A stretch of DNA of 24,114 bases from a virus. The notes beneath the pieces were generated by a model that did no database searches, was not told the DNA's origin, and saw only the letters and a list, made by a program, of their open reading frames with translations. Shown in pieces: positions 2,697-24,114 of this stretch (position 1 is the first letter of the stretch; each line of letters begins with the position of its first letter). The translations under genes were made by a program, and so were the position numbers. The DNA lies in the IMG/VR virus record IMGVR_UViG_3300010316_000046, positions 1 through 24,114 of that record; one strand, 5' to 3'.

Positions 2697-3215
2697 ATGA
2701 AATTCTTTTTTATGTTTGTCGGTCTACCTGCATCTGGAAAATCATCCGCATTATGGACTATGGTTAAGTCTTTGCTAGATGATGGTGTCCATATGAGTAA
2801 TATCACTGTTTTGAGTACTGATGCATATATTGAAGATATCGCAAAAAAGTGTGGTAAAACTTATAATGAAATTTTCAAAAACCATATTAAGGATTCAACC
2901 AGAATTATGTACGAAGCTCTTGAAAAGGCTTTGGCTGCTGATGTTGAATTTGTATTTTGGGATCAAACCAATCTTACATCTAAGTCACGCAAACAGAAGT
3001 TTGATAAAATTAACAAAGATGAATTTGAGACTTATGCAATTGTCTTTGAGAAAGAGAGTCCTACTCTCCTTCATAACAGGATGGTTGAAAATAGACCAGA
3101 TAAAATTATTGGACTTGATATAATAGAAAGTATGTACAATAATTTTGAAGATGTAACTGAAGATGAAGGTTTTGATAAAATCATCAGAATCAAAAATGGA
3201 GAAAAACATGAATAA
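2697..3215 (+). CDS. Polynucleotide-kinase-like P-loop kinase, kinase domain only
   Basis: The 172-residue protein begins with a Walker A loop G9-LPASGKS16, has TD at 41-42 at the place of the catalytic aspartate of T4 polynucleotide kinase, a DQTNL segment near residue 94 like the DTNL of T4 Pnk, and an arginine-bearing lid (RMVENRPDK, about 107-115). It therefore looks like a 5'-hydroxyl kinase of the Pnk/AAA_33 group. T4 Pnk is 301 aa with a C-terminal 3'-phosphatase; that half is absent here. It sits right after rnlA and tRNA-Arg, which favours RNA repair. The start ATG follows AAGGA. The exact substrate is not shown by the sequence. Confidence 0.8.
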
Positions 3216-3468
3216 TACTGCAACTGTAGCACATGAACAACTTAAGTCTTTTATTGAACGTGTTGAACATTTGGAAGAAGACAAGAAAACTATTAGTGAT
3301 GATATCAAGGAAGTATATGGTGAAGCCAAGGCTACCGGATTTGATACAAAGGCAATCAAAAAGATTATTCAAATTCGTAAACTGGATGCTGATGAACGTG
3401 CTGAACAAGAAGCAATTCTTGATTTGTATCTTCAGGCAATTGGTATGGCAGATGGTGATGAGGTATAA
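3208..3468 (+). CDS. GapR / DUF2312 family DNA-binding protein
   Basis: The 86-residue product carries the family pattern almost complete: [16 protein letters not shown], then [20 protein letters not shown] and [18 protein letters not shown]. GapR (Caulobacter) is a nucleoid-associated protein that binds overtwisted AT-rich DNA. The family is typical of alphaproteobacteria and their phages. I chose the ATG at 3208 behind GGAG (3198-3201); the frame is open further upstream, but inside the kinase gene. It overlaps the kinase stop by 8 bases, suggesting coupled translation. In a phage it could organise replicating DNA or compete with the host protein (inference). Confidence 0.9.
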
Positions 3469-3469
3469 T

Positions 3470-3769
3470 ATGGCATGGATGTATGCATTAGATCATAATG
3501 GCACTCCGATTAATCGGAAAGGTGATTCTGGTATGATGAGTCAAGCAATTTTTCGTAATGAAGTTGGAAAGGCTGTTGCAGAAGATAATGCAAAACCCAG
3601 AGTTGGGGTTCGTATGAGAGTTGGTAGCATTTATGCTAGAAGTTATAGTGATCAAGATTATTGGACCACTACAGAAATTCAAGAAATTCTACGAGAAGAG
3701 GTTATTGATGGTGTTTTAACCATTGAGTTTAGGACACTTAATAGCGTCTATCTTTGGAGAGAAATTTAA
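3470..3769 (+). CDS. Protein of unknown function (99 aa)
   Basis: The ATG at 3470 begins two bases after the GapR-like stop, with GAGG in the end of that gene as ribosome site. The open frame extends upstream to 3233 but there only shadows the GapR-like gene. The product starts MAWMYALDHNGTPINRKGDS and has a beta-like core (RVGVRMRVGSIYAR) followed by an acidic helix (TTTEIQEILREEVIDG). I do not recognise the family. Confidence 0.75.
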   Translation: MAWMYALDHNGTPINRKGDSGMMSQAIFRNEVGKAVAEDNAKPRVGVRMRVGSIYARSYSDQDYWTTTEIQEILREEVIDGVLTIEFRTLNSVYLWREI

Positions 3770-5027: not shown

Positions 5028-5039
5028 TGAATATAGGGG

Positions 5040-5068
5040 TTTACTATCTGTAATAAATAATGTATATT
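5040..5068 (+). promoter_or_regulatory. Sigma70-type promoter, TTTACT-17-TATATT
   Basis: GTTTACT (-35 at 5040-5045) and TATATTGAT (-10 at 5063-5068) with a 17-nt spacer, 30 bases upstream of the small ORF at 5098. It would drive the coupled series 5098-5181-5333-5434-6042. The GTTTAC start matches the T4 early-promoter -35 consensus as I remember it. Confidence 0.72.
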
Positions 5069-5097
5069 GATACTAATGCAATTAAGAGGAGAAAAAT

Positions 5098-5184
5098 ATG
5101 TGGATTCTATTTAATCTTGCCCATTTTCAATATACTGAAATTGGATTTTTTACACTTCTATTTCTTGAAAGGATGTTTACATGA
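5098..5184 (+). CDS. 28-residue hydrophobic small ORF
   Basis: ATG at 5098 behind AGAGGAG, ending in a TGA at 5182-5184 that overlaps the next ATG (ATGA). The peptide is hydrophobic and aromatic (MWILFNLAHFQ...FFTLLFLERMFT) and might sit in the membrane, although charged residues are few and the length barely allows one span. The good ribosome site, the promoter 30 bases upstream and the stop/start overlap are the evidence; there is no homology I can name. Confidence 0.5.
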   Translation: MWILFNLAHFQYTEIGFFTLLFLERMFT

Positions 5185-7539: not shown

Positions 7540-7959
7540 ATGACATGGTATTTAAATGATAATGTATTTACAGAAAATGATATCCCAGATGATGTTTTAG
7601 GTTTTGTTTATTGTATAACAAATCTTAAGACATCTCGAAAATATATTGGTAAAAAAATATTCTTCAACACAATCAAAAGACCACCACTAAAAGGTAAAAA
7701 ACGCAAACGTATTACAAAGGTTAATTCTGATTGGCAGAAATATTATGGCTCCAATGAAGTTCTGAAAGAGGAATTGTTAGTCGGTGATGAATCTGATTAT
7801 AAAAGAGAGATACTATATCTCTGTAAAAATAAAACCGAAATGGCTTATTTAGAAACAAAAGAACAATTCAACCGGGGTGTGTTATTGAGTGATGATTATT
7901 ACAATTCTTGGATAAGTGCTAAAATTACCTCAAGAGGTTTAGATGGACTTAAAGTTTAA
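7540..7959 (+). CDS. GIY-YIG-like putative endonuclease of T4-like phages
   Basis: The N-terminal core GFVYCITNLKTSRKYIGKK is a degenerate GIY-YIG motif (FVYCI then KYIGKK), followed by SDWQKYYGSN, EILYLCKNKTEMAYLE and a C-terminal TSRGLDGL. This arrangement is familiar from a T4-like phage family annotated as putative endonuclease or homing-like protein, of about 140 aa; this one is 139 aa. The start ATG at 7540 has almost no Shine-Dalgarno sequence, but the W-Y-x-N-D beginning fits the family. Whether it is an active nuclease is unknown. It overlaps the next ORF by 17 bases. Confidence 0.75.
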   Translation: MTWYLNDNVFTENDIPDDVLGFVYCITNLKTSRKYIGKKIFFNTIKRPPLKGKKRKRITKVNSDWQKYYGSNEVLKEELLVGDESDYKREILYLCKNKTEMAYLETKEQFNRGVLLSDDYYNSWISAKITSRGLDGLKV

Positions 7960-15027: not shown

Positions 15028-15777
15028 ATGTTAAATAGAATTGATGAACCAACAAGAAAAAGAAGTAAGAGAAATAAGAAAAATAGTTCGTCATTAGATA
15101 TACAATATGTGGAAGGTAAAACTGCAAATCAAACTAAATTTATGGAAGCATTTGAAAATAATGATTTAGTTATTGGAGTTGGATATCCGGGAACAGGTAA
15201 AACATATTTAGCATTATATATGGCTTTAACTGAACTTGAAATTAACAAAGAATTTGAAAAAATTTATATTGTTAGGTCTTCAGTATCATCTAGAAATTTG
15301 GGATTCATGCCCGGAAATGCTAATGATAAAATGAAGGAATATGAAAAACCATATATGTCGAATGTCAATGATTTATATGGTCGTGGTGATGCTTATAATA
15401 TTCTTAAACAAAAAGGTATTATTGAGTTTTCACCTACATCATATTTGCGTGGTCAAACATTCAATAACTGTATCGTAATTTTGGATGAATTTCAAAATTT
15501 ATCATTTCAAGAGCTTACTACTGTTATTACAAGGTTTGGTGAGAATTGTAAAATGGTTGTTATTGGTGATACGGGTCAAGATGATTTAACCAGTGAACGA
15601 TATAAGGAATTTTCCGGTGCTAGAGATTTGATGAAAATTACCAATAAAATGAAAAATGTTGAAACGGTTTATATGGGTGTTAATGACATTGTTAGGTCTG
15701 GATTTGTTCGAGATTTCATAATTGCTCAATATGGAATACCAGAGGAATTTGATATAAAACAATATCAACTAATCTAG
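15028..15777 (+). CDS. phoH: PhoH-family ATPase
   Basis: The 249-residue protein has Walker A G52-YPGTGKT59, IVRSSVSSRNLGFMPGN with the family-typical L-G-F-M-P-G, Walker B VILDEFQN with D153/E154, and VVIGDTGQDD as sensor. PhoH proteins are RNA-linked ATPases common in T4-like phages; their precise role in infection is not settled. I chose the ATG at 15028, behind AGGAG; the GTG at 14992 would add a hydrophobic stretch and lacks a ribosome site. The N-terminal 30 residues are basic. A strong terminator follows directly. Confidence 0.93.
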   Translation: MLNRIDEPTRKRSKRNKKNSSSLDIQYVEGKTANQTKFMEAFENNDLVIGVGYPGTGKTYLALYMALTELEINKEFEKIYIVRSSVSSRNLGFMPGNANDKMKEYEKPYMSNVNDLYGRGDAYNILKQKGIIEFSPTSYLRGQTFNNCIVILDEFQNLSFQELTTVITRFGENCKMVVIGDTGQDDLTSERYKEFSGARDLMKITNKMKNVETVYMGVNDIVRSGFVRDFIIAQYGIPEEFDIKQYQLI

Positions 15778-15804
15778 AAAAAGGAGCCGAAAGGCTCCTT
15801 TTTT
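15778..15804 (+). terminator. Rho-independent terminator after phoH
   Basis: GGAGCC (15783-15788), GAAA tetraloop, GGCTCC (15793-15798), then six T; five A precede the stem and could extend the pairing. It is a textbook intrinsic terminator, one base behind the phoH stop codon. Confidence 0.95.
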
Positions 15805-15805
15805 G

Positions 15806-15834
15806 TTTACATATATTATGATTTGATATATATT
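15806..15834 (+). promoter_or_regulatory. Sigma70-type promoter, TTTACA-17-TATATT
   Basis: GTTTACA (-35 at 15806-15811) and TATATT (-10 at 15829-15834), spacer 17 nt, beginning two bases after the phoH terminator. It would drive the 15855-17395 group. Confidence 0.75.
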
Positions 15835-15854
15835 AAAACTAATAGGAGAGAATT

Positions 15855-16151
15855 ATGAAAGATATTGATTGGATTATAAATGATCTTAAAGAGGCTGCTA
15901 GTAAAGCTACTAGTGGTGTGTGGGATGTATCTGGTGTAAGAGCAAAAAGATTGGATGTAGAATCCATCACTATTAATACAGATGATGATGCATTTATATT
16001 TTTTCCAATTGGTGAACGTGGTGAGTATCATAGTGAAGCATTTAATGATGCAAATTATGTTGCTAAATGCTCTCCATCTGATATTCTGGCTTTGATTGAT
16101 GAGATAGAATCACTTAGAGCACAACTTAAAAGATTAGTAGAAACGTGGTGA
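15855..16151 (+). CDS. Ead/Ea22-like phage protein (98 aa)
   Basis: ATG at 15855 behind AGGAGAG. The layout of an N-terminal LKEAASKATSGVWDVSGV segment, a middle variable region, and a terminal NDANYVAKCSPSDILALIDE followed by a coiled helix (IESLRAQLKRL) is the pattern of Ead/Ea22-like proteins of phages, which have no firmly known function. It is first in a transcription unit with the RNA ligase at 16164. Confidence 0.68.
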   Translation: MKDIDWIINDLKEAASKATSGVWDVSGVRAKRLDVESITINTDDDAFIFFPIGERGEYHSEAFNDANYVAKCSPSDILALIDEIESLRAQLKRLVETW

Positions 16152-16163
16152 AGGGAGAATAAA

Positions 16164-17198
16164 ATGACTGAGATGATTAAATTTGGTTCTATTGGACAAT
16201 TTCGAAACACAATTCGAGATGTGAAGGATTATGTTGCACGTCAAAATGAAATTAATGGTACATCTGGTACACTACCAACACTAGAATTTCGTGGGAGTGT
16301 TAAACTTCATGGTACAAACTGTTCATGGAATTACTCAGCTGATAGTGGCACTTTTACTCCACAATCGCGCAATCGTGTATTGAGTGTTGGTGATGATAAT
16401 GCAGGATTTGCAAAATACTGTGAAGATAATCGGGAATCTATTAATACCTTGTTTAATACATTAACGGGTTTTGTTGATGTAAATAATAAAATTGATAATA
16501 TTATTGTTTATGGTGAATGGGTTGGTCCGGGAATACAAAAGGGTGTTGCTATTTCCTCTATACCAACTAAATCATTTTTTGTGTTTAGTGTTAAATACAT
16601 ATTCAAAAATGGTTCTGTTGAAGAATATCCGGGTACAATTTTTGGTGTAACCAATGCTCTTAGTCTGATTCAAGTTCCAGATGCATACTCAATAACAGAT
16701 TTTCCAGAATGGAGAATTGTTATCGATTTTAATGAACCAGATGTAGTTCAAAATGAATTGATTAAAATTACAGAAGATGTTGAAGCTGAATGTCCAGTTG
16801 CACTTGTTTTTGGTGTTTCTGGTATAGGTGAAGGTGTTGTTTGGACACACTATCTTGAAGATGGTTCCACACTGAGATTTAAGGTTAAGGGTGAAAAACA
16901 TTCAATTTCTAAAGTTAAAACTCTTGCTGCAGTTGACATTGAAGAGATTAACAACATCAAAGAGTTTGTTGATTCTGTATTGACTGAATCTAGGTTAATG
17001 CAAGGTATTGAATACCTTAAGGAAATGAACCATAAGATTGATGAAACATCTACTGGTCATTATGTTAAGTGGGTGGTTTCTGATGTATTTAAAGAGGAAA
17101 TGGACACCATTAACGAAAATGGTCTTGATAGTAAAAAGGTTGGGAAGCATCTCTCTAATGGTGCAAGGAAATGGTTTTTTGAGAAAGGAATTTGTTAA
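16164..17198 (+). CDS. RNA ligase of the T4 Rnl2 family
   Basis: ATP-dependent RNA ligase/nucleotidyltransferase. Motif I is K47-L-H-G-T-N (T4 Rnl2: K-I-H-G-T-N), motif III is GEWVGPGIQKGV with E118 (T4: GEFAGPGIQKNV), motif IV GEGVVW around E223, and motif V FKVKGEKHS with K240/K242. At 344 aa it compares with 334 for T4 Rnl2, so the C-terminal domain is present. Rnl2 enzymes seal nicks in duplex RNA and can repair RNA breaks. Together with Rnl1 at 1375 this phage has two RNA ligases, as T4 does. The start follows GGGAG; the stop overlaps the next ATG by one base. Confidence 0.9.
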   Translation: MTEMIKFGSIGQFRNTIRDVKDYVARQNEINGTSGTLPTLEFRGSVKLHGTNCSWNYSADSGTFTPQSRNRVLSVGDDNAGFAKYCEDNRESINTLFNTLTGFVDVNNKIDNIIVYGEWVGPGIQKGVAISSIPTKSFFVFSVKYIFKNGSVEEYPGTIFGVTNALSLIQVPDAYSITDFPEWRIVIDFNEPDVVQNELIKITEDVEAECPVALVFGVSGIGEGVVWTHYLEDGSTLRFKVKGEKHSISKVKTLAAVDIEEINNIKEFVDSVLTESRLMQGIEYLKEMNHKIDETSTGHYVKWVVSDVFKEEMDTINENGLDSKKVGKHLSNGARKWFFEKGIC

Positions 17199-17395
17199 TG
17201 AGTAATATGGATAATGCAGCTAATATGATTAAATGCCTTACTTGGAGTGAAATGATTGAATTTGCTTCAGAATTGAATGATGCCATGGAAGAAGTTAATG
17301 ATGGTGTTGGTATTGGTGGTATTGGTTGTGTTGGTGTAGACCAAACATATAAGATATGTGAAGTGTTAAACGGATGGGCTGAAACTAGAGCATAA
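17198..17395 (+). CDS. Small protein of unknown function (65 aa)
   Basis: ATG at 17198 overlaps the stop of the ligase gene (TAATG) and lies behind AAAGGA. The product has a helical first half (ANMIKCLTWSEMIEFASELN) and a glycine-rich turn (GVGIGGIGCVGVD). No motif or family is recognised. Its coupling to the Rnl2-like gene suggests a shared transcript. Confidence 0.65.
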   Translation: MSNMDNAANMIKCLTWSEMIEFASELNDAMEEVNDGVGIGGIGCVGVDQTYKICEVLNGWAETRA

Positions 17396-17418
17396 TTTGA
17401 TATTTTCTAATTTAGTTG

Positions 17419-17447
17419 TTGACATTAATTCAAAAATACTCTATATT
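17419..17447 (+). promoter_or_regulatory. Consensus-like promoter, TTGACA-17-TATATT
   Basis: TTGACA (17419-17424), 17 bases, TATATTGAT (-10 at 17442-17447). It is one of two in the window with a perfect -35 hexamer; the other is the minus-strand promoter at 11663-11635. It lies 37 bases upstream of the winged-helix-like gene at 17484. Confidence 0.8.
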
Positions 17448-17483
17448 GATCATATAAATTAAATGAAACAAGGAAATTATATT

Positions 17484-17723
17484 ATGAATAAGTCAAAGCT
17501 TGAAAATAAGTGGTGGATTGTTGACCGTCTCAAGGTTATCAATGGTGATGATGATGCAAAGGATTTGAAGATTTCCTATTACCACAAGAAGATTTTGGTT
17601 GAACGTGGTTTTGTTGCAGTGGAAAATCTAAAAGGTGAAGGTCGCGGTCGACCAACTTCAATTTATAAGTTGTCTGGTAAAGGTCGTGGTTATTTGGCTC
17701 TTTCCACAAAATGGAAGAGGTAG
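17484..17723 (+). CDS. Small winged-helix-like DNA-binding protein (79 aa)
   Basis: ATG at 17484 behind AAGGA; an ATG at 17463 in the same frame lacks a ribosome site. The part KISYYHKKILVERGFVAVEN reads as a recognition-helix region, and GRGRPTSIYKLSGKGRGYL is the basic wing with the G-R-G-R-P-x-x-x-Y-x-L-(T/S)-x-K-G-R pattern of winged-helix regulators. It stands between a strong promoter and a hairpin terminator as its own transcription unit, as expected for an early regulator. Its targets are unknown. Confidence 0.7.
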   Translation: MNKSKLENKWWIVDRLKVINGDDDAKDLKISYYHKKILVERGFVAVENLKGEGRGRPTSIYKLSGKGRGYLALSTKWKR

Positions 17724-17730
17724 TATGATA

Positions 17731-17770
17731 AGCAGTCTGACACATCGAAAGAAACACCAGACTGTTTATT
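17731..17770 (+). terminator. Hairpin terminator after the winged-helix-like gene
   Basis: CAGTCTG (17733-17739) pairs with CAGACTG (17758-17764), extended by one G-T and one A-T pair, loop 18 nt, followed by TTTATTAATTTT. The large loop makes it weaker than the phoH terminator. Confidence 0.65.
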
Positions 17771-17797
17771 AATTTTAATGAAATAAAGGAGACTACT

Positions 17798-18499
17798 ATG
17801 AAGATTAGTGATATTAGGCGAATTTTAGCAACAAAGTATCAAAAACAAGAATTTACAATGGATGCTGATAATGGTGATCGCATTATTGAAATTGTTGGTG
17901 CTAGTTTTGTTGCAGATACAGATAGTATTTTTGGTACACCAGATGTAAATTTTATCAAAAAAGAAATTGAATGGTATCATAAACTATCAACAAATATTAA
18001 TGATATTGGTGAAAAAACAGATATACAACAAAAATGGCTTGATGCTGCCGACCAATATGGTAACATTAATTCAAATTATGGTGAGCTTATTTTTTCACCA
18101 CGATATCTAGGTCAATATTCTGAAGTATCATATGAGTTGGAATTAAATCCAGAATCCAGACGTGCTGTTATGATTTATAATCGTCCTTCTATGTGTGAAG
18201 AATATAAGGAAAATGGTAAATATGATTTCATTCCTACAAATGCAGTGGGTTATCATATTAGAGATAATAGACTCAATGCTACTGTACAAATGAGTTCAAT
18301 TGATGCAGTTACTGGATACCATAGTGATTATGCATGGCAGAAGCATGTTTTGGCAATGCTTCATAATGATTTGGATCATACAGATAGTCGTATGGATCAA
18401 ACAACAAGTTTTGAAGTTGGTGATATTACATGGCAAGCAATGTCACTTTATGTCCATGAAAAAGACTTCCACCTTTTGGATGAGTATCTAAATGTATGA
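17798..18499 (+). CDS. gp42 (dCMP hydroxymethylase)-like protein lacking the catalytic cysteine
   Basis: The 233 residues align along their length with T4 gp42 as I remember it: IEIVGASFVAD (30-40), KKEIEWY with E56 matching catalytic E60, NSNYG (91-95), ESRRAVMIYNRPSM (119-132) with the arginine pair, TNAV-x-Y-x-IRD (147-156), and SDYAWQKHVL with D177 matching the cytosine-reading D179. However, the nucleophile C148 of T4 is P146 here (DFIPTN for DFMCTN) and phosphate-binding R168 is S166 (QMSSID for NMRSND). The enzyme is therefore probably unable to hydroxymethylate in the known way. It overlaps the dCMP deaminase by eight bases; the start follows AAAGGAG. The frame is intact, so it is a divergent protein rather than a decayed gene. 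Confidence 0.85.
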   Translation: MKISDIRRILATKYQKQEFTMDADNGDRIIEIVGASFVADTDSIFGTPDVNFIKKEIEWYHKLSTNINDIGEKTDIQQKWLDAADQYGNINSNYGELIFSPRYLGQYSEVSYELELNPESRRAVMIYNRPSMCEEYKENGKYDFIPTNAVGYHIRDNRLNATVQMSSIDAVTGYHSDYAWQKHVLAMLHNDLDHTDSRMDQTTSFEVGDITWQAMSLYVHEKDFHLLDEYLNV

Positions 18500-18947
18500 T
18501 AAATGGGATTTGCGATTTCTAAAAATCGCAAAAGAAGTTTCCATGTGGTCCCTCGATCCTTCTACGAAAATCGGTTCGGTTATCGTAAAGGATCGAAGGA
18601 TTCTTTCAACTGGTTATAATGGTTTTCCACGAAATATTGAAGACACTCTTGAAAGACTTTCTGATAGAGAGTCAAAATATAAATATATGGTTCATGGCGA
18701 ATTGAATGCAATTTTAAATGCATCATATCATGGTATATCTTTATGTGGAGCTACCGCATACGTTTATGGTTTGCCGCCATGTGTGGAATGTTCAAAAGCA
18801 ATAATTCAATCTGGAATAAGTGTAGTTGTATCTCAATATGCACATCCATTACCTGAAAGATGGAATAATTCTTATTTACTGAGTAAAGAGATATTTGAAG
18901 AATCAAATATTGAATATAAAGAATTTGAAATAAACACTTTACTCTAG
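18492..18947 (+). CDS. dCMP deaminase
   Basis: Converts dCMP to dUMP, the substrate of ThyX. The zinc site is H68-G-E70 (usually H-A-E) with PPCVEC giving C97 and C100; E70 is the proton-shuttle glutamate. The upstream block DPSTKIGSVIVKDRRILSTGYNGFPR is typical of the family. At 151 aa it is shorter than T4 Cd (193 aa). The start at 18492 lies within the end of the gp42-like gene, so the two are coupled. The Ala-to-Gly change in the H-A-E motif is mild and compatible with activity. Confidence 0.92.
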   Translation: MYDKWDLRFLKIAKEVSMWSLDPSTKIGSVIVKDRRILSTGYNGFPRNIEDTLERLSDRESKYKYMVHGELNAILNASYHGISLCGATAYVYGLPPCVECSKAIIQSGISVVVSQYAHPLPERWNNSYLLSKEIFEESNIEYKEFEINTLL

Positions 18948-18966
18948 ATTAGATTCAGGTTATATT
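18938..18966 (+). promoter_or_regulatory. Promoter of tRNA-Ser and the polymerase locus, TTTACT-17-TATATT
   Basis: TTTACT (18938-18943) overlaps the last codons of the dCMP deaminase gene; TATATTGAT (-10 at 18961-18966) follows after 17 bases. Initiation near 18973 precedes the tRNA (18992) and gp43A. Confidence 0.7.
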
Positions 18967-18991
18967 GATATTTCATACATAAATATAATAT

Positions 18992-19080
18992 GGAGAGGTG
19001 GCTGAGTGGTAAGGCACCTCATTGCTAATGAGGCAGGGTGTGAAAGCATCTCATGGGTTCGAATCCCATTCTCTCCTCCA
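18992..19080 (+). tRNA. tRNA-Ser (anticodon GCU)
   Basis: Acceptor GGAGAGG / TCTCTCC, class II long variable arm (GGGTGTGAAAGCATCTC region), anticodon stem CCTCA/TGAGG with loop TTGCTAA and anticodon GCT (19024-19026), T arm ATGGG-TTCGAAT-CCCAT, encoded CCA at 19078-19080. It reads AGC/AGU serine codons, AGT being frequent here. It sits 16 bases before the gp43A start. Confidence 0.95.
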
Positions 19081-19096
19081 ATATTAAGGATATTTC

Positions 19097-20641
19097 TTGA
19101 GCGATAATTTTTACACATTTTTCAAAAAACATAAAAACAAGATACTATTATCAGGTTATGAAAATGGTGTTAAATTCAACAAACAGGTGCATAATAAACC
19201 ATATCTTTTTGTTGATTCTGATAAAGATAATAAAAAATATGTAAACATGGCTGGAAAACCAGTGCGTAGAATTGATTTTGAATCAACCTATGAGGCTCGC
19301 ACATTCTCTAGGGAATATCAGGATATAGAAAATTTTGAAGTGTATGGTTCCACGTATTTTGAATATGTGTGGATAAATGATAATTATTCTAACCTAAAAT
19401 CAGACAATTCTAAGATTAAGATTGGTAATTATGATATTGAAACTGATTCTGAAGGTGGGTATGGTAATATCGAAACAGCAGATAAAGCAGTTATATCAAT
19501 ATCAATAGGGTTGGTTGGTCATAAAGATATTTATTGTCTTGGTTTAAAAGATTATGATCCATCGAAATCCGAAAGATTAAAAAAAGAGATTCCAAACAAA
19601 AATGTAATCTATACTAAATGTAATAGTGAAGAAGCTTTATTGCGTAAATTCATTAGTATATGGGTTGCGCTGGAGATGGATTGTATTACTGGTTGGAATG
19701 TGAATGGTTATGATAATCTGTATGTTATCAGGCGTATAAGGCGCATATTGGGTGATGAAAAGGCTAAGAAATTATCCCCATTTGGTCTTATTAATGAATC
19801 ATTTTATGAAGCATGGGGTAAAACTCAATCTAGGTTTGATATTGTTGGAATACCGACACTTGATTATATTGAATGTTATAAAAAATTCTCATTTAAAAAT
19901 CATGAGTCGTATAAACTAGACTACATTGCTCATGATGTTCTGGATAAGAAGAAATTGGATTATTCTCAATATAGAACATTGGCCCGTCTATACAAAGAAA
20001 ATTCTGATCTGTTTTATGACTACAACATCATTGATATTGTGAGAGTTGAAGATTTAGAACATAAATTGAAATTTATTGATTTGATTTTTCAGTTAGCTCA
20101 TTTCACCAGAACAAATGTATTGGATGCATTTTCGACAGTTAAACCATGTGATGTTATTATTCATAATACATTGATGAGAGATAATATAGTAATACCACAT
20201 CAACAAGAAACAGGAGAAGTAGCAGAAGGAGCTAAGAATATTGTTGGTGGGTATGTAAAAAAAGTTATCACTGGACACCATAAATATGTTATGTCTTTTG
20301 ATTTTGCATCTCTATACCCACATTTGATAATGCTTTATAACATTTCGGCTGAAACATTTATGGGTAAACTATCACAATATGATAGTGTAAATACACCTGA
20401 TTTAGTTATTAAGGGTGAATTTGATCAATTTTATGATAAATTAATCAAAGATAATATGACAATGACACCAAAAGGAACTGTTTTCTCTAGAGATAAACCC
20501 GGTGTATTCGGTGTAGTTATGAAAGAATTGTTCTCTAAAAGAACTGAATATAAAAATGAAATGATGAAATATAAGAAAAAGAAAGAGAAAATATTAATAG
20601 AAATAGAAAAAAGAGGATTAAAACATCATCTTCTATCATAA
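19097..20641 (+). CDS. 43A: DNA polymerase gp43, fragment A: exonuclease, first half of the palm, start of the fingers
   Basis: Family B replicative polymerase. Exonuclease motifs: I D113-I-E115, II N201...Y205-D206 (NVNGYDN), III Y309...D313 (YNIID). Polymerase motif A is D402-F-A-S-L-Y-P. The fragment ends after LFSKRTEYKNEMM, the first finger helix, with a basic tail (KYKKKKEK to HHLLS) and TAA. It lacks motifs B and C, which are in fragments B and C, so on its own it could proofread but not polymerise. The start is TTG at 19097 behind AAGGA. The 514 residues match the first part of T4 gp43 (898 aa); nothing essential seems lost at the break. It must assemble non-covalently with the other part, since no intein sequence is seen at this break. 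Confidence 0.92.
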   Translation: MSDNFYTFFKKHKNKILLSGYENGVKFNKQVHNKPYLFVDSDKDNKKYVNMAGKPVRRIDFESTYEARTFSREYQDIENFEVYGSTYFEYVWINDNYSNLKSDNSKIKIGNYDIETDSEGGYGNIETADKAVISISIGLVGHKDIYCLGLKDYDPSKSERLKKEIPNKNVIYTKCNSEEALLRKFISIWVALEMDCITGWNVNGYDNLYVIRRIRRILGDEKAKKLSPFGLINESFYEAWGKTQSRFDIVGIPTLDYIECYKKFSFKNHESYKLDYIAHDVLDKKKLDYSQYRTLARLYKENSDLFYDYNIIDIVRVEDLEHKLKFIDLIFQLAHFTRTNVLDAFSTVKPCDVIIHNTLMRDNIVIPHQQETGEVAEGAKNIVGGYVKKVITGHHKYVMSFDFASLYPHLIMLYNISAETFMGKLSQYDSVNTPDLVIKGEFDQFYDKLIKDNMTMTPKGTVFSRDKPGVFGVVMKELFSKRTEYKNEMMKYKKKKEKILIEIEKRGLKHHLLS

Positions 20642-20701
20642 AAAAGATGGAGGATATTCCACATAATATTTTAGAAACACATAATATATGGAAGGATTAT
20701 A

Positions 20702-21618
20702 ATGTATGAAGAATTAAATGATGTTGAATTATTAGCTTTATATGAAAAAGCATCATATAATGAAACGCAATTACATAATGAACAGTTAGCAGTAAAAATC
20801 CTAGCAAATTCCTTTAATATTAGAGGCTTTATATAGTAATATATAAATGAAAATCTGGTGAATTGCTGGAAACTCCTGATAATAGGACAATCAGCAGCCA
20901 AGCTTGAAAGAGAAGGTTCAACGACTATTCCGCAAGGAAGTACACTTAAGTAAGTGGAAGCGCCAGACATCCATATGGATGATGATATAGTCTGCTCTTT
21001 ATGGTAACATAAAGCTGGATGTTATTCCGGGTAAAAACTAACGATTTTTATTGAACATAAGGTTATGGTGGGTTGGCTAACAAATACTCAAGATGGTTTA
21101 ACAATGATATCGCTGAAAGCATTACTATTAGTGGTCAACTTGCAACAAAATGGGTGGAAGTGGAAGTAAATGGATATTTGAATAAAATACTAAAGACAAC
21201 TGATTTTGACTATATTATTGGTTGTGACACAGATTCGGTTGTTGGTGATACTACTATTAATGTAAATGGTATAGATACCACTATATCTGAATATTTTGAA
21301 GATATGAAGGACTATATTAAATGTGATAAATTTAATGAAAACTATATCAAAGAAGGAGATAAGTCGTTAACTCCTTCTATTAATAAGATTAGTGGTAATA
21401 TTGAATATAAACCAATTAAATATGTAATGAAACATAAAGTTAAAAAGGAGATGTATAGAATAACTAATAACAGAGGTGAAAGTGTCACAGTGACAGAAGA
21501 CCATTCTGTAATAGTAAAAGATAAAAAAAGTGGTAAAATATTAGAGATATCACCAAAAAAAATTAATATAGAGAACCATAGAATCATAAATATAATAGGT
21601 ACTGATACAGATTCATAA
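20702..21618 (+). CDS. 43B: DNA polymerase gp43, fragment B (spliced) fused to the N-half of a split intein
   Basis: The reading frame needs RNA splicing: exon 1 20702-20814, exon 2 from 21063, joined inside a TTT codon to give KILANSF-YGGLANKY (motif B, K-x3-N-S-x-Y-G). The polymerase part is 95 residues, from a new ATG behind GGAAGG (MYEELNDVELLALYEK, second finger helix) to IIGCDTD (motif C). From S at 21235 the frame continues as 127 intein residues to TAA at 21616-21618. Without splicing, translation stops at 20834-20836. This fragment carries the metal-binding aspartates of motif C but not the residues after them, so it needs trans-splicing with fragment C to be useful. Confidence 0.88.
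20815..21062 (+). mobile_element. Group I intron (subgroup IA-like) without an internal ORF
   Basis: 5' site: exon CCTT (20811-20814) and intron T20815 pair with the guide AGAGG (20822-20826), giving P1 with the required U-G pair at U20814. The last intron base is G21062. P4 is TTGCTG (20863-20868) with CAGCAG (20892-20897), P5 TCCT/AGGA (20874-20877 with 20884-20887), P7 GACTA (20923-20927) with TAGTC (20988-20992), P8 a palindromic CATCCATATGGATG, and P9 CTTTATG-GTAA-CATAAAG (20997-21014). GGTTCAACGACTA and GATATAGTCTG are the strings seen around P7 in T4 introns. Length 248 nt, so it carries no endonuclease of its own. Self-splicing restores an exact motif B. Confidence 0.9.
21235..21615 (+). 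other. N-terminal half of a split intein (polymerase motif C site)
   Basis: The intein begins with Ser1 in SVVGDTTINVNG (block A) directly after GCDTD. RGESVTVTEDHSVIV (about residues 87-101) is block B with its T-x-x-H. Then come EISPKKINIENHRIINI, the normal end of an N-intein, and eight extra residues, IGTDTDS with the preceding I, that copy the extein motif IIGCDTDS. A TAA follows. The block F and His-Asn end are missing here and are found at 22680-22805. Confidence 0.88.
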
Positions 21619-21628
21619 GGGTTCGATA

Positions 21629-22699
21629 GTGAAATCAATAAAAGAAAAACTAAATAATTATATTTTTCCTATAATATATGATGATGATAATATAGATATA
21701 GAATTTATATATTCGAGAAGACACACAAAAGGATTTAAAAATGTTATAAAATATAATAAACCTGATACGATATCAGGTTTGTATGATATTCTATATAAAA
21801 TAATGATTATGGGTTCTGCAATGTTATTAGAAAAGTATATATTGATGTATGGTGATAATTTAGGAGAAATTAGATATAATAAGTCATGTGCTGGATCGTC
21901 TATAACACTTGATAATATGGTTTCTAAATATGGTGTTATAGATGGAACTAAAAAATTCAATATATATAGAAATAGACAATCGTATAGTAATTCATATGAA
22001 TATAAATTTGAAAAATATGGTATGTCTAAAGAAGAATATAATTCTTATAATAAATCAAGAGCTGTAACACTTGATAATATGGTTTCTAGACATGGTGTTA
22101 TAGATGGAACTAAAAAATTCAATATATATAGAAATAGACAATCTTATACTAACTCAGAGGAATATCTTGGTAAAGAAAAATATAAAGAAGTTAATAGTAA
22201 AAAAGCTAATACTATTGAAAATTTTATTACACGATATGGTAAAGAAGTGGGAATATCAAAATTTGAAAAATATATCAATAAAATGCCATGTGGATATTCC
22301 AAAATAAGCCAAGAATTATTTTGGAATATCCTAGATAAAACTGATATATTTTCAGATGCTTATTTTGCTGAAAGAAATAATGAATATGGTGTTATGGATA
22401 TAGTAAATAATAGATATTTTAAATATGATTTCGTATCTATTAATATGAATATTGTTATAGAATTTCAGGGTGATCATTATCATGGTAATCCTAAGATGTA
22501 TAAACCATACGATTATTTATGTGGTAAAGGCTGTACTAATATAATAGCGAAAGATAAATGGATATATGATAAACAAAAAGAAGACCTGATAAAAGAGAAA
22601 CGGGGTTTTGAAACTATATTTGTTTGGGAATCTGATTATCGTGATGATAAAGATTTTATGGTAAAGAGGATAATTGATTATGTTAAAAATAGAATTTGA
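21629..22699 (+). CDS. Homing endonuclease (Vsr-like / EDxHD type) between the intein halves
   Basis: A 356-residue ORF in a different frame from both polymerase fragments, with GTG start (21629) behind AAGG. The C-terminal part has the nuclease core YDFVSINMNIVIEFQGDHYH, i.e. D...E-F-x-G-D-x-x-H, followed by a conserved K-D-K-x-x-x-D-K region and FETIFVWESD. The middle has three repeats of a DNA-binding type module (TLDNMVSKYGVIDGTKKF, twice almost identical, then IENFITRYGKEVGISKF). This matches the endonuclease family described with fractured genes and split inteins in metagenomic phage DNA (Dassa et al., from memory). It would cut uninterrupted polymerase alleles near motif C and spread the cassette. 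Its stop overlaps the C-intein start by 20 bases. Confidence 0.85.
   Translation: MKSIKEKLNNYIFPIIYDDDNIDIEFIYSRRHTKGFKNVIKYNKPDTISGLYDILYKIMIMGSAMLLEKYILMYGDNLGEIRYNKSCAGSSITLDNMVSKYGVIDGTKKFNIYRNRQSYSNSYEYKFEKYGMSKEEYNSYNKSRAVTLDNMVSRHGVIDGTKKFNIYRNRQSYTNSEEYLGKEKYKEVNSKKANTIENFITRYGKEVGISKFEKYINKMPCGYSKISQELFWNILDKTDIFSDAYFAERNNEYGVMDIVNNRYFKYDFVSINMNIVIEFQGDHYHGNPKMYKPYDYLCGKGCTNIIAKDKWIYDKQKEDLIKEKRGFETIFVWESDYRDDKDFMVKRIIDYVKNRI
21904..22143 (+). repeat. Near-identical 78-nt direct repeats in the endonuclease gene
   Basis: Copies at 21904-21981 and 22066-22143 are offset by 162 nt (54 codons) and differ at only two bases by eye. They encode TLDNMVS(K/R)(Y/H)GVIDGT followed by KKFNIYRNRQS. 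A third, diverged protein repeat follows (NTIENFITRYGKEVG). The low divergence indicates a recent in-frame duplication of a DNA-recognition module. Confidence 0.92.
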
Positions 22700-22805
22700 T
22701 GATGATTATGTGATTGAATCATTAGGTATACAAGAAATAGATGTGTATGATATCGAAGTTGAAGATAATCATAATTTTTTTGGTAATAATATATGTGTTC
22801 ATAAT
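22680..22805 (+). other. C-terminal half of the split intein
   Basis: Forty-two residues starting MLKIEFDDDYVIESLG and ending with block F/G: VYDIEVEDNHNFFGNN then ICVHN. The penultimate His, terminal Asn and following Ser+1 are the residues needed for branching and Asn cyclisation. The length is usual for natural split C-inteins of the gp41/NrdJ kind. Confidence 0.92.
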
Positions 22806-23627
22806 TCGATTTATGTGAATGTAGAGGGTATTGTTGATAAAATCTATCCGGGATCAGACCCTAACAATGATGAAGATAGATCAAAGATAACTGATATGTT
22901 AACAGAATTTGCTAAAACATTAGAAGAAAAAGCAATTAGTGTAGCACTAGAGAAAATGTATAAGACTACAAATGCATATGATCCATGCCTTAATATGAAA
23001 GTTGAAGCTATTGGACAAGGTGTTTGGAGAGCGTCTAAAAACTATATTATGTCTGTGTGGTCCATGGAAGGTATTAAATATCAAACACCTGTAATCAAAA
23101 TGACGGGTATTGAGGCTGTTAAATCATCAACACCAGAGATATGTAGAAATTACATCAAGGATTCAATTTCCTATATCGTTAAAAAAGATGAAGCTGGTTT
23201 AATTAAACATATTGAAAAATGTGTTGAAGAATTTTACTCAATGCCATTTGATAAAATTGGTAAACCATCAGGTGTTACTGATATTGATAAATGGATTGAT
23301 TCAAACACTATATTCAAAAAGGGTGTACCATATCACGTGCGCGGGGCAATAACATATAACAATTTAGTAGATGAAAAAAATCTAAATGATGTGTGTACAA
23401 AGATACAAAATGGTGATAAGATGCGTATCTGTTATATGCTTTTACCTAACCCGACTGGTCAGAATATATTTGCTGTGCCAGATGAATTACCAGAGGAGTT
23501 TAGATTAGAGGGTTATATTGATTATGTAAAACAGATAGATAAAACATTCTTAAAACCAGTTAATTCATTGGCTAGTCTAGCTGATATTGATTTGGATGGT
23601 AAAAAGAAATTAGATGAATTTTATTAG
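22680..23627 (+). CDS. 43C: DNA polymerase gp43, fragment C with N-terminal split-intein half
   Basis: The first 42 residues are the C-intein; the extein begins at Ser 22806 (SIYVNVEGIVDK), completing motif C as GCDTD-SIYV. It then has palm and thumb hallmarks of T4-type polymerases: MKVEAIGQGVWRASKNYIMS (equivalent of the K-K-R-Y-A motif region), GIEAVKSSTPEICR, YHVRGAITYN, and a C-terminal SLADIDLDGKKKLDEFY whose last residues resemble the clamp-binding tail of RB69 gp43. The extein is 273 aa. I use ATG 22680, spaced well from AGAGGA; a TTG at 22674 is in frame. Fragments A, B and C sum to 882 residues. Confidence 0.9.
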   Translation: MLKIEFDDDYVIESLGIQEIDVYDIEVEDNHNFFGNNICVHNSIYVNVEGIVDKIYPGSDPNNDEDRSKITDMLTEFAKTLEEKAISVALEKMYKTTNAYDPCLNMKVEAIGQGVWRASKNYIMSVWSMEGIKYQTPVIKMTGIEAVKSSTPEICRNYIKDSISYIVKKDEAGLIKHIEKCVEEFYSMPFDKIGKPSGVTDIDKWIDSNTIFKKGVPYHVRGAITYNNLVDEKNLNDVCTKIQNGDKMRICYMLLPNPTGQNIFAVPDELPEEFRLEGYIDYVKQIDKTFLKPVNSLASLADIDLDGKKKLDEFY

Positions 23628-23636
23628 GAGATAATA

Positions 23637-23867
23637 ATGGCGCAACATGATGTACGTATGACACCAGATTTTGGTTTCACGTTTGAAAATGAAAAGGATA
23701 ACGATACAACGCAAGCACAAGAATTGTATGATATACAGGTTTCATTCCTTAATAGACTTAAGGGTGATATCGATAAAGATACAATTGCTTGGCCGGGTCA
23801 ACAAAGACACCAACAAATTGAGAATTTTATTGAAAAATTAAACGCAATCATGAAGGGAAATAAATGA
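23637..23867 (+). CDS. Small protein between gp43 and uvsX (76 aa)
   Basis: ATG at 23637 behind AGGAG. The product begins MAQHDVRMTPDFGFTFENEK and ends in a helical region with IAWPGQQRHQQIENFIEKLN. A short ORF of this kind sits before uvsX in other T4-like phages as I recall; its function is unknown. Its TGA overlaps the uvsX ATG (ATGA), so the two are translated together. Confidence 0.8.
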   Translation: MAQHDVRMTPDFGFTFENEKDNDTTQAQELYDIQVSFLNRLKGDIDKDTIAWPGQQRHQQIENFIEKLNAIMKGNK

Positions 23868-24114
23868 GTTTTAGAGACGAATTACTTAAAGCAACAAAAA
23901 TCAAGGAATCTGGTTTACTATCTGAATCTTTAGTTTACAACAAGAGAGAATTTGCACCAACACAAATTCCAATGATGAATGTTGCATTATCTGCAGACCC
24001 ATTTGGTGGAGTTTCTTCAGGGTTGACTGCATGGTGTGGACCATCTAAACACTTCAAATCTTTGTTTTGTTTGGTATCAGCTAAAGCATATTTGGATAAA
24101 CATGATGATGCTAC
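23864..24114 (+). CDS. uvsX: UvsX recombinase, 5' part (runs off the window)
   Basis: RecA-like strand-exchange protein of T4 recombination. The first 83 codons are present: MSFRDELLKATKIKESGLLS, then IPMMNVALSADPFGGVSSGL and the Walker A CGPSKHFKS (T4: GPSKSFKS). The start ATG is behind AAGGGA and overlaps the preceding stop. The window ends about 15 residues after the P-loop, so the rest of the ATPase core cannot be checked. Its place directly after gp43 is the usual T4-like order. Confidence 0.93.
   Translation, partial: MSFRDELLKATKIKESGLLSESLVYNKREFAPTQIPMMNVALSADPFGGVSSGLTAWCGPSKHFKSLFCLVSAKAYLDKHDDA

Follow-up and report, generated by a model that had tools for sequence, protein, structure and literature searches.

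How can a replicative DNA polymerase gene that has been interrupted three times still yield a working enzyme, and by what route did the interruptions arrive? The question is raised by a 24,114-nt virus record in IMG/VR (IMGVR_UViG_3300010316_000046), an incomplete genome fragment whose whole length we call the window, in which a polymerase gene extends from 19097 to 23627 on the forward strand in the order 43A, a 60-nt gap, 43B1 with a group I intron and an N-terminal intein half (IntN), a Vsr-like endonuclease gene, and a C-terminal intein half fused to the last polymerase fragment (IntC-43B2; Table 1). The original prediction had placed three interruptions in this one gene: a stop and restart at the tip of the fingers (20641/20702), a group I intron at motif B (20815-21062) and a split intein at motif C with an endonuclease gene between its halves. 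These coordinates stand almost unchanged, and Rfam, a match to the PDB structure 9HTH (the Aes123 PolB1 intein) and sequence comparison bear out the four elements. The accompanying claims that all family B polymerase motifs are kept across the pieces and that the exteins sum to 882 residues also hold on recomputation (514 + 95 + 273). We consider it highly likely that the locus encodes a working two-subunit family B replicative polymerase of a T4-like (gp43) phage, in which three conserved sites have been invaded, the intron is spliced out, the intein ligates 43B, the product assembles with 43A, and mobility is driven by nucleases.

Table 1. Parts of the broken polymerase locus, with positions in the window.
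Feature	Positions	Strand	Basis
43A, N-terminal polymerase fragment, 514 aa	19097..20641	+	ORF; Pfam DNA_pol_B_exo1 + DNA_pol_B; PHROG 262 and 2062; RB69/Aeromonas comparison
Gap between 43A and 43B1, 60 nt, with RBS GGAAGG at 20690-20695	20642..20701	+	sequence
43B1 exon 1 (second fingers helix; first part of motif B, KILANSF)	20702..20814	+	sequence comparison; splice-boundary search
Group I intron, 248 nt, without an ORF of its own	20815..21062	+	Rfam RF00028; boundary search
43B1 exon 2 (N-extein): motif B (YGGLANKY) through motif C (..DTD)	21063..21234	+	sequence comparison; extein count; boundary search
IntN, 127 aa: Ser1, TEDH block B, then stop	21235..21618	+	9HTH match; residue census
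Putative homing endonuclease, Vsr-like (EDxHD-type) and free-standing, 356 aa from a GTG start	21629..22699	+	PHROG 22677; Aeromonas VSR relative; AF2/Foldseek
IntC, 42 aa, C-terminal HN	22680..22805	+	9HTH match; residue census
C-extein of 43B2: +1 Ser, palm/thumb, 273 aa + stop	22806..23627	+	RB69 polymerase match

The first break divides the polymerase into two cistrons at the fingers tip, between motifs A and B. 43A, which contains the exonuclease domain, motif A (DFASLYPHLI) and the first fingers helix, runs from a TTG at 19097 with an SD-like AAGGAT on its 5' side to a TAA at 20639-20641; 43B1 (20702-21618, intron included) has a start of its own, ATG at 20702 with the SD sequence GGAAGG at 20690-20695, and lies in the frame of 43A with two in-frame stops between them. 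No homing gene is found inside the 60-nt gap, and the predicted RNA fold of the gap is not significant (z -1.84). A -1 frameshift at AAAAAAG after the 43A stop was rejected as an alternative, the heptamer being out of the 43A frame and preceded by the stop. At the far end of the locus, the C-extein of 43B2 matches RB69 polymerase residues 623-898 (E about 1e-26). Elsewhere, the window carries a free-standing SegE-type GIY-YIG endonuclease gene (7540-7959; Pfam E 1.2e-34) and two RNA ligase genes (1375-2526 and 16164-17198), one belonging to Pfam RNA_lig_T4_1 and the other to the general RNA_ligase family.

The intron matches RF00028 with 118.9 bits (E 9e-31, gathering threshold 50) over model positions 1-253, that is, at full length and with the conserved core. 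Its boundaries come from a search of all U/G splice pairs (U before the intron, G at its end) that restore motif B, which returned only 20815-21062 and an alternative shifted by 1 nt that puts Cys for Phe; with junctions at 20814/20815 and 21062/21063, removal restores both the frame and motif B (NSF^YGG). As read from the sequence, CCUU of the 5' exon and GAGG of the intron can form a pairing that places a U.G at the splice site, and the intron is predicted to be a self-splicing RNA.

The intein halves are likewise encoded separately: the IntN coding sequence (21235-21615) ends in a stop at 21616-21618, and IntC, in a different frame, has its own start, most likely the ATG at 22680 (AAAGAGG upstream) rather than the TTG at 22674. 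IntN and IntC match 9HTH with E 2.7e-18 and 5.8e-11, respectively; Pfam Intein_splicing scores IntN below its cut-off. An alignment census found Ser1, T-x-x-H, the block F Asp and the terminal His-Asn invariant in the 53 to 59 loci scored, and the window's intein has the expected Ser/Cys1, TxxH, block F Asp, His-Asn and +1 Ser/Cys/Thr residues. By analogy with its characterized relative, it probably splices in trans: the Aes123 intein, from PolB genes of T4-like Aeromonas phages, does so natively with about 30% efficiency (PMC11923092). The two share homologous IntN and IntC, Ser1, a +1 Ser and the same place in PolB, but the Aes123 intein is cysteine-less whereas that of the window has one Cys in IntN (IKCDKF) and one in IntC (NICVHN).

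The gene between the intein halves, which overlaps 43B2 by 20 nt, has the E...G-D..H pattern of Vsr-like catalytic sites, with E278, D282 and H285 invariant in 20 sequences, and its Aeromonas phage homologue is annotated as a VSR-domain protein. Its AlphaFold model (pLDDT 85) has Vsr (1cw0) as second Foldseek match (prob 0.98, E 0.18, TMt 0.55), which is suggestive only, as the Foldseek search gave no match at E <= 0.001; a profile comparison with Vsr chains is also weak (E 0.36-0.51). Repeated motifs lie N-terminal to the nuclease domain, and the gene itself contains a 104-nt direct repeat (21900-22003 and 22062-22165, 92% identical and 162 nt apart), presumed to encode a DNA-binding motif. 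In two near-identical phages of the wider set, the motif C endonuclease is whole in one (L072) and apparently deleted to a remnant in the other (L077).

Taken together, these parts suggest how one polymerase would be made. The group I intron would be removed from the 43B transcript by RNA splicing; three proteins would then be made, 43A, 43B1-IntN and IntC-43B2; the split intein would join the 43B halves (95 + 273 = 368 aa); and the 368-aa 43B would assemble non-covalently with the 514-aa 43A, as gp43A and gp43B of Aeromonas phages do, whose split fragments co-purify and are active (review, PMC2988022). We infer RNA splicing, trans-splicing, subunit assembly and homing in the window from sequence features. 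The insertion at motif C would owe its mobility to the Vsr-like nuclease between the intein halves, while the fingers split and the motif B intron may be what is left of a second insertion, one that spread when cuts introduced by a different homing gene, not present here, were repaired. Judging by relatives, that homing gene was probably lost from the fingers gap, against which counts Aeromonas phage 44RR2.8t, where the fingers are split, again with no homing gene in the gap.

The original prediction regarded the nesting of these breaks as unusual, which does not hold: the combination of gene split, intron and split intein is already on record in Aeromonas phages. In the records of Aes508, Aes512 and Aes516 (GenBank JN377894, JN377903 and JN377905) the same three kinds of break are annotated in the same gene and the same order. 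The Aes508 annotation reads gp43A, a GIY-YIG gene, an 'N-terminal fragment including group I intron and N-intein', a VSR-domain protein and a 'C-terminal fragment including C-intein'; Aes512 and Aes516 agree with it, except that Aes516 is without both endonuclease genes, and Rfam confirms the Aes508 and Aes516 introns. Aes508 and Aes512 thus share with the window the Vsr-like endonuclease between the intein halves, but they have a GIY-YIG gene in the fingers gap, where the window has none, and the exteins of these triple-broken phages are only about 30-41% identical to the window's. Simpler states are known from the same host genus: in Aeromonas phage 25 the polymerase is split, the gap holds a homing gene and 43B is interrupted by a group I intron at the Aeromonas site (PMC2988022), and 44RR2.8t shows the fingers split alone. 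Both have the window's two-cistron division at the fingers tip, and phage 25 also its intron in 43B, but neither has an intein.

Parts of the arrangement are familiar more widely. Split inteins whose halves flank an EDxHD (Vsr-like) endonuclease gene are said to have been described as 'fractured genes' by Dassa et al. in 2009; the order N-extein-IntN, endonuclease, IntC-C-extein is the window's, but here the interrupted gene is gp43, which also carries an intron and is split a second time. The phage SPbeta ribonucleotide reductase and the Campylobacter phage IBB_35 terminase are also reported to combine an intron with an intein, so that RNA and protein splicing are needed for one product, which likewise weakens the claim of unusual nesting; these are different genes, and the part of the source that deals with them describes no extra, unligated gene split (PMC3322345).

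If Aeromonas phages have the same architecture, the whole broken locus may have come, by descent or by transfer, as a single block from a triple-broken polymerase of the Aeromonas type. We find this quite improbable. A search of phage genomes for the same breakpoints did find the fingers split, motif B intron and motif C intein shared by Aeromonas phages, so that the order of parts and the kinds of element at all three sites match, but the introns occupy different positions, that of the window lying 11 nt upstream of the Aeromonas site (20 vs 31 nt from the motif B Lys codon) and hence not being simply inherited from the Aeromonas arrangement. The extein, moreover, is sister (44-48% identical in each of the three pieces) to the intact, inteinless polymerase of Rhizobium phage RHph_I1_18, apart from Straboviridae, and the neighbours of that polymerase are also the window's, PhoH upstream and UvsX downstream; the intein groups with that of another IMG/VR lineage, L024, apart from the Aes inteins. 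By these groupings the window is a distant member of the triple-broken kind.

Slightly less probable still is that the gene is a decaying relic and that the phage replicates with another, intact polymerase. An essential gene with three interruptions invites that reading, as does the incompleteness of a 24-kb genome fragment, but all polymerase motifs and intein catalytic residues are retained, and the layout is maintained in isolated Aeromonas phages. Two other IMG/VR contigs also show the same breaks, one (L013) covering 15629-24114 and the other (L012) running from 20521 on; each is 4 nt different from the window, and all eight differences are synonymous, though they sit in two small clusters and hence are not eight independent events. 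Recurrence in other contigs and synonymous-only differences argue against error as well as decay. That any of the breaks is an artefact of assembly or sequencing, as might be feared of a metagenome contig whose fingers break is a same-frame stop and restart, can practically be dismissed, given the two other contigs, the element-specific sequence at each break (RBS, full group I core, intein blocks) and the isolates with the same breaks. The break-up of the polymerase is real, and the broken polymerase is probably functional, since intron removal restores motif B, the intein residues are kept, the pieces have their own RBSs, the contig differences are synonymous only, and relatives share the architecture.

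To see how widely the pattern recurs, we turn to the 80 viral contigs with the same intein site that an IMG/VR search with the C-terminal fragment returned; they form 61 clusters at 90% identity, 54 of them classable. Unbroken fingers without an intron were found in 30 clusters, the split only in 15, and the split together with an intron in nine. Eight of these nine (the window, the Aeromonas group, L024, L026, L036, L039, L044 and L055) also have a split intein, which adds six further IMG/VR lineages with all three breaks and tells further against unusual nesting; in the ninth, L090, the intein is unsplit. All nine intron clusters in this set are thus fingers-split, and none of the 30 unsplit clusters has an intron (Fisher p 2.5e-4, uncorrected for relatedness). 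A rule that an intron in polB requires a split gene is nevertheless rejected on account of E. coli phage PSD2002, whose intron-bearing polymerase is unsplit, and of JSE, for which a gene 43 intron is reported (PMC2993671) and which has two polymerase ORFs broken at a place other than the fingers split. Among relatives picked by the N-terminal fragment, 76 of 78 are unbroken and none has an intein, a contrast with the intein set that is confounded by relatedness, since this set is mostly marine and cyanophage-like by look. The nearest intron in the phage collection, in Vibrio phage D69, was set aside because its flanking ORF is not a polymerase. Two loci show further variation: L152, fingers-split without intein or intron, has a purM-like gene (AIR synthase domains; 2789-3721) between 43A and 43B, a metabolic gene at the spot where others carry a homing gene, and L050, intronless, has a break in the 43B1 frame just past motif B (5034-5180; YGALA / ANNHF), with a frame change over about 7 nt that is either a frameshift or an error.

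The introns of these lineages occupy at least three insertion positions within 24 nt. Counted from the motif B Lys codon, the offset is 20 nt in the window, L026 and L090, 22 in L055, 7 to 9 in L024, L036, L044 and L039, and 31 in the Aeromonas phages and G2285, an E. coli phage; the L024 and 31-nt sites were placed by hand and the remainder come from the splice-boundary search. Rfam reports no intron in L026, L039, L055 and L090 (the first three are missed even at a relaxed threshold), and these were located by splice-boundary and motif search; L090, without a clear core motif, is counted as a weaker case.

Two pairs of close relatives show the locus before and after such insertions. L025 (1679-3790) and L026 (1533-4660) are about 98.5% identical over the last 600 nt of 43A and 99% over the intein; L025 is intronless and its fingers are unbroken, whereas in L026 a stop is followed by about 1 kb that contains an antisense ORF (unmatched in Pfam and PHROG), then by a restart and an intron placed as in the window, and exon 2 of L026 falls to 85-92% identity with L025 for about 150 nt before returning to 99%. 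E. coli phage G2285 (L174, MK327933, 1379-5180) is 97% identical around the polymerase to RB69, whose polymerase is intact, but its own gene stops, resumes beyond a GIY-YIG gene and is then interrupted by a group I intron, with about 180 nt upstream at 82-88% vs RB69; the authors of that record could not place the intron/exon boundaries. The diverged stretches in both pairs look like gene conversion tracts, which suggests that the fingers split and the intron can arrive together. The intron of PSD2002, 95% identical and in a polymerase without the split, indicates that it can also arrive alone, so that split and intron are separable.

The ends of the split genes have features of their own. By eye, about 21 of 23 split genes have a 43B fragment that opens (L/M)(S/T)xx(E/D)L-like, and the ends of the 43A fragments are (K/R)RG(L/I)-like in many; the unsplit relatives compared have neither signature. 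The two resemble helix N- and C-caps where the fingers helices are cut, though common descent of the split explains them equally well. From all this we draw a tentative proposal, which we rate a little short of evenly balanced: fingers split and motif B intron would belong together in a single mobile cassette, made up of the 43A stop, in some cases a homing gene, the 43B restart and the intron, which has entered polB repeatedly by co-conversion and brings its own end caps, the split being tolerated at once. The window would then hold a relic of this cassette without the homing gene, on a second, independent split-intein island.

New here are the distant lineage of the window, the site of its intron, the before/after pairs and the recurrence of the triple break in six further IMG/VR lineages. 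Protein engineering may also gain from the window, whose polymerase split intein could be tried there. For the biology of these phages, the making of one polymerase from one gene would take two splicing enzymes, one of RNA and one of protein, as well as subunit assembly. The literature proposal that separate insertion elements act as one system moving polB DNA becomes testable on defined alleles through the before/after pairs. Across the IMG/VR set the pattern is recurrent and modular, with introns at several neighbouring sites, inteins whole or split, and homing genes kept or lost.
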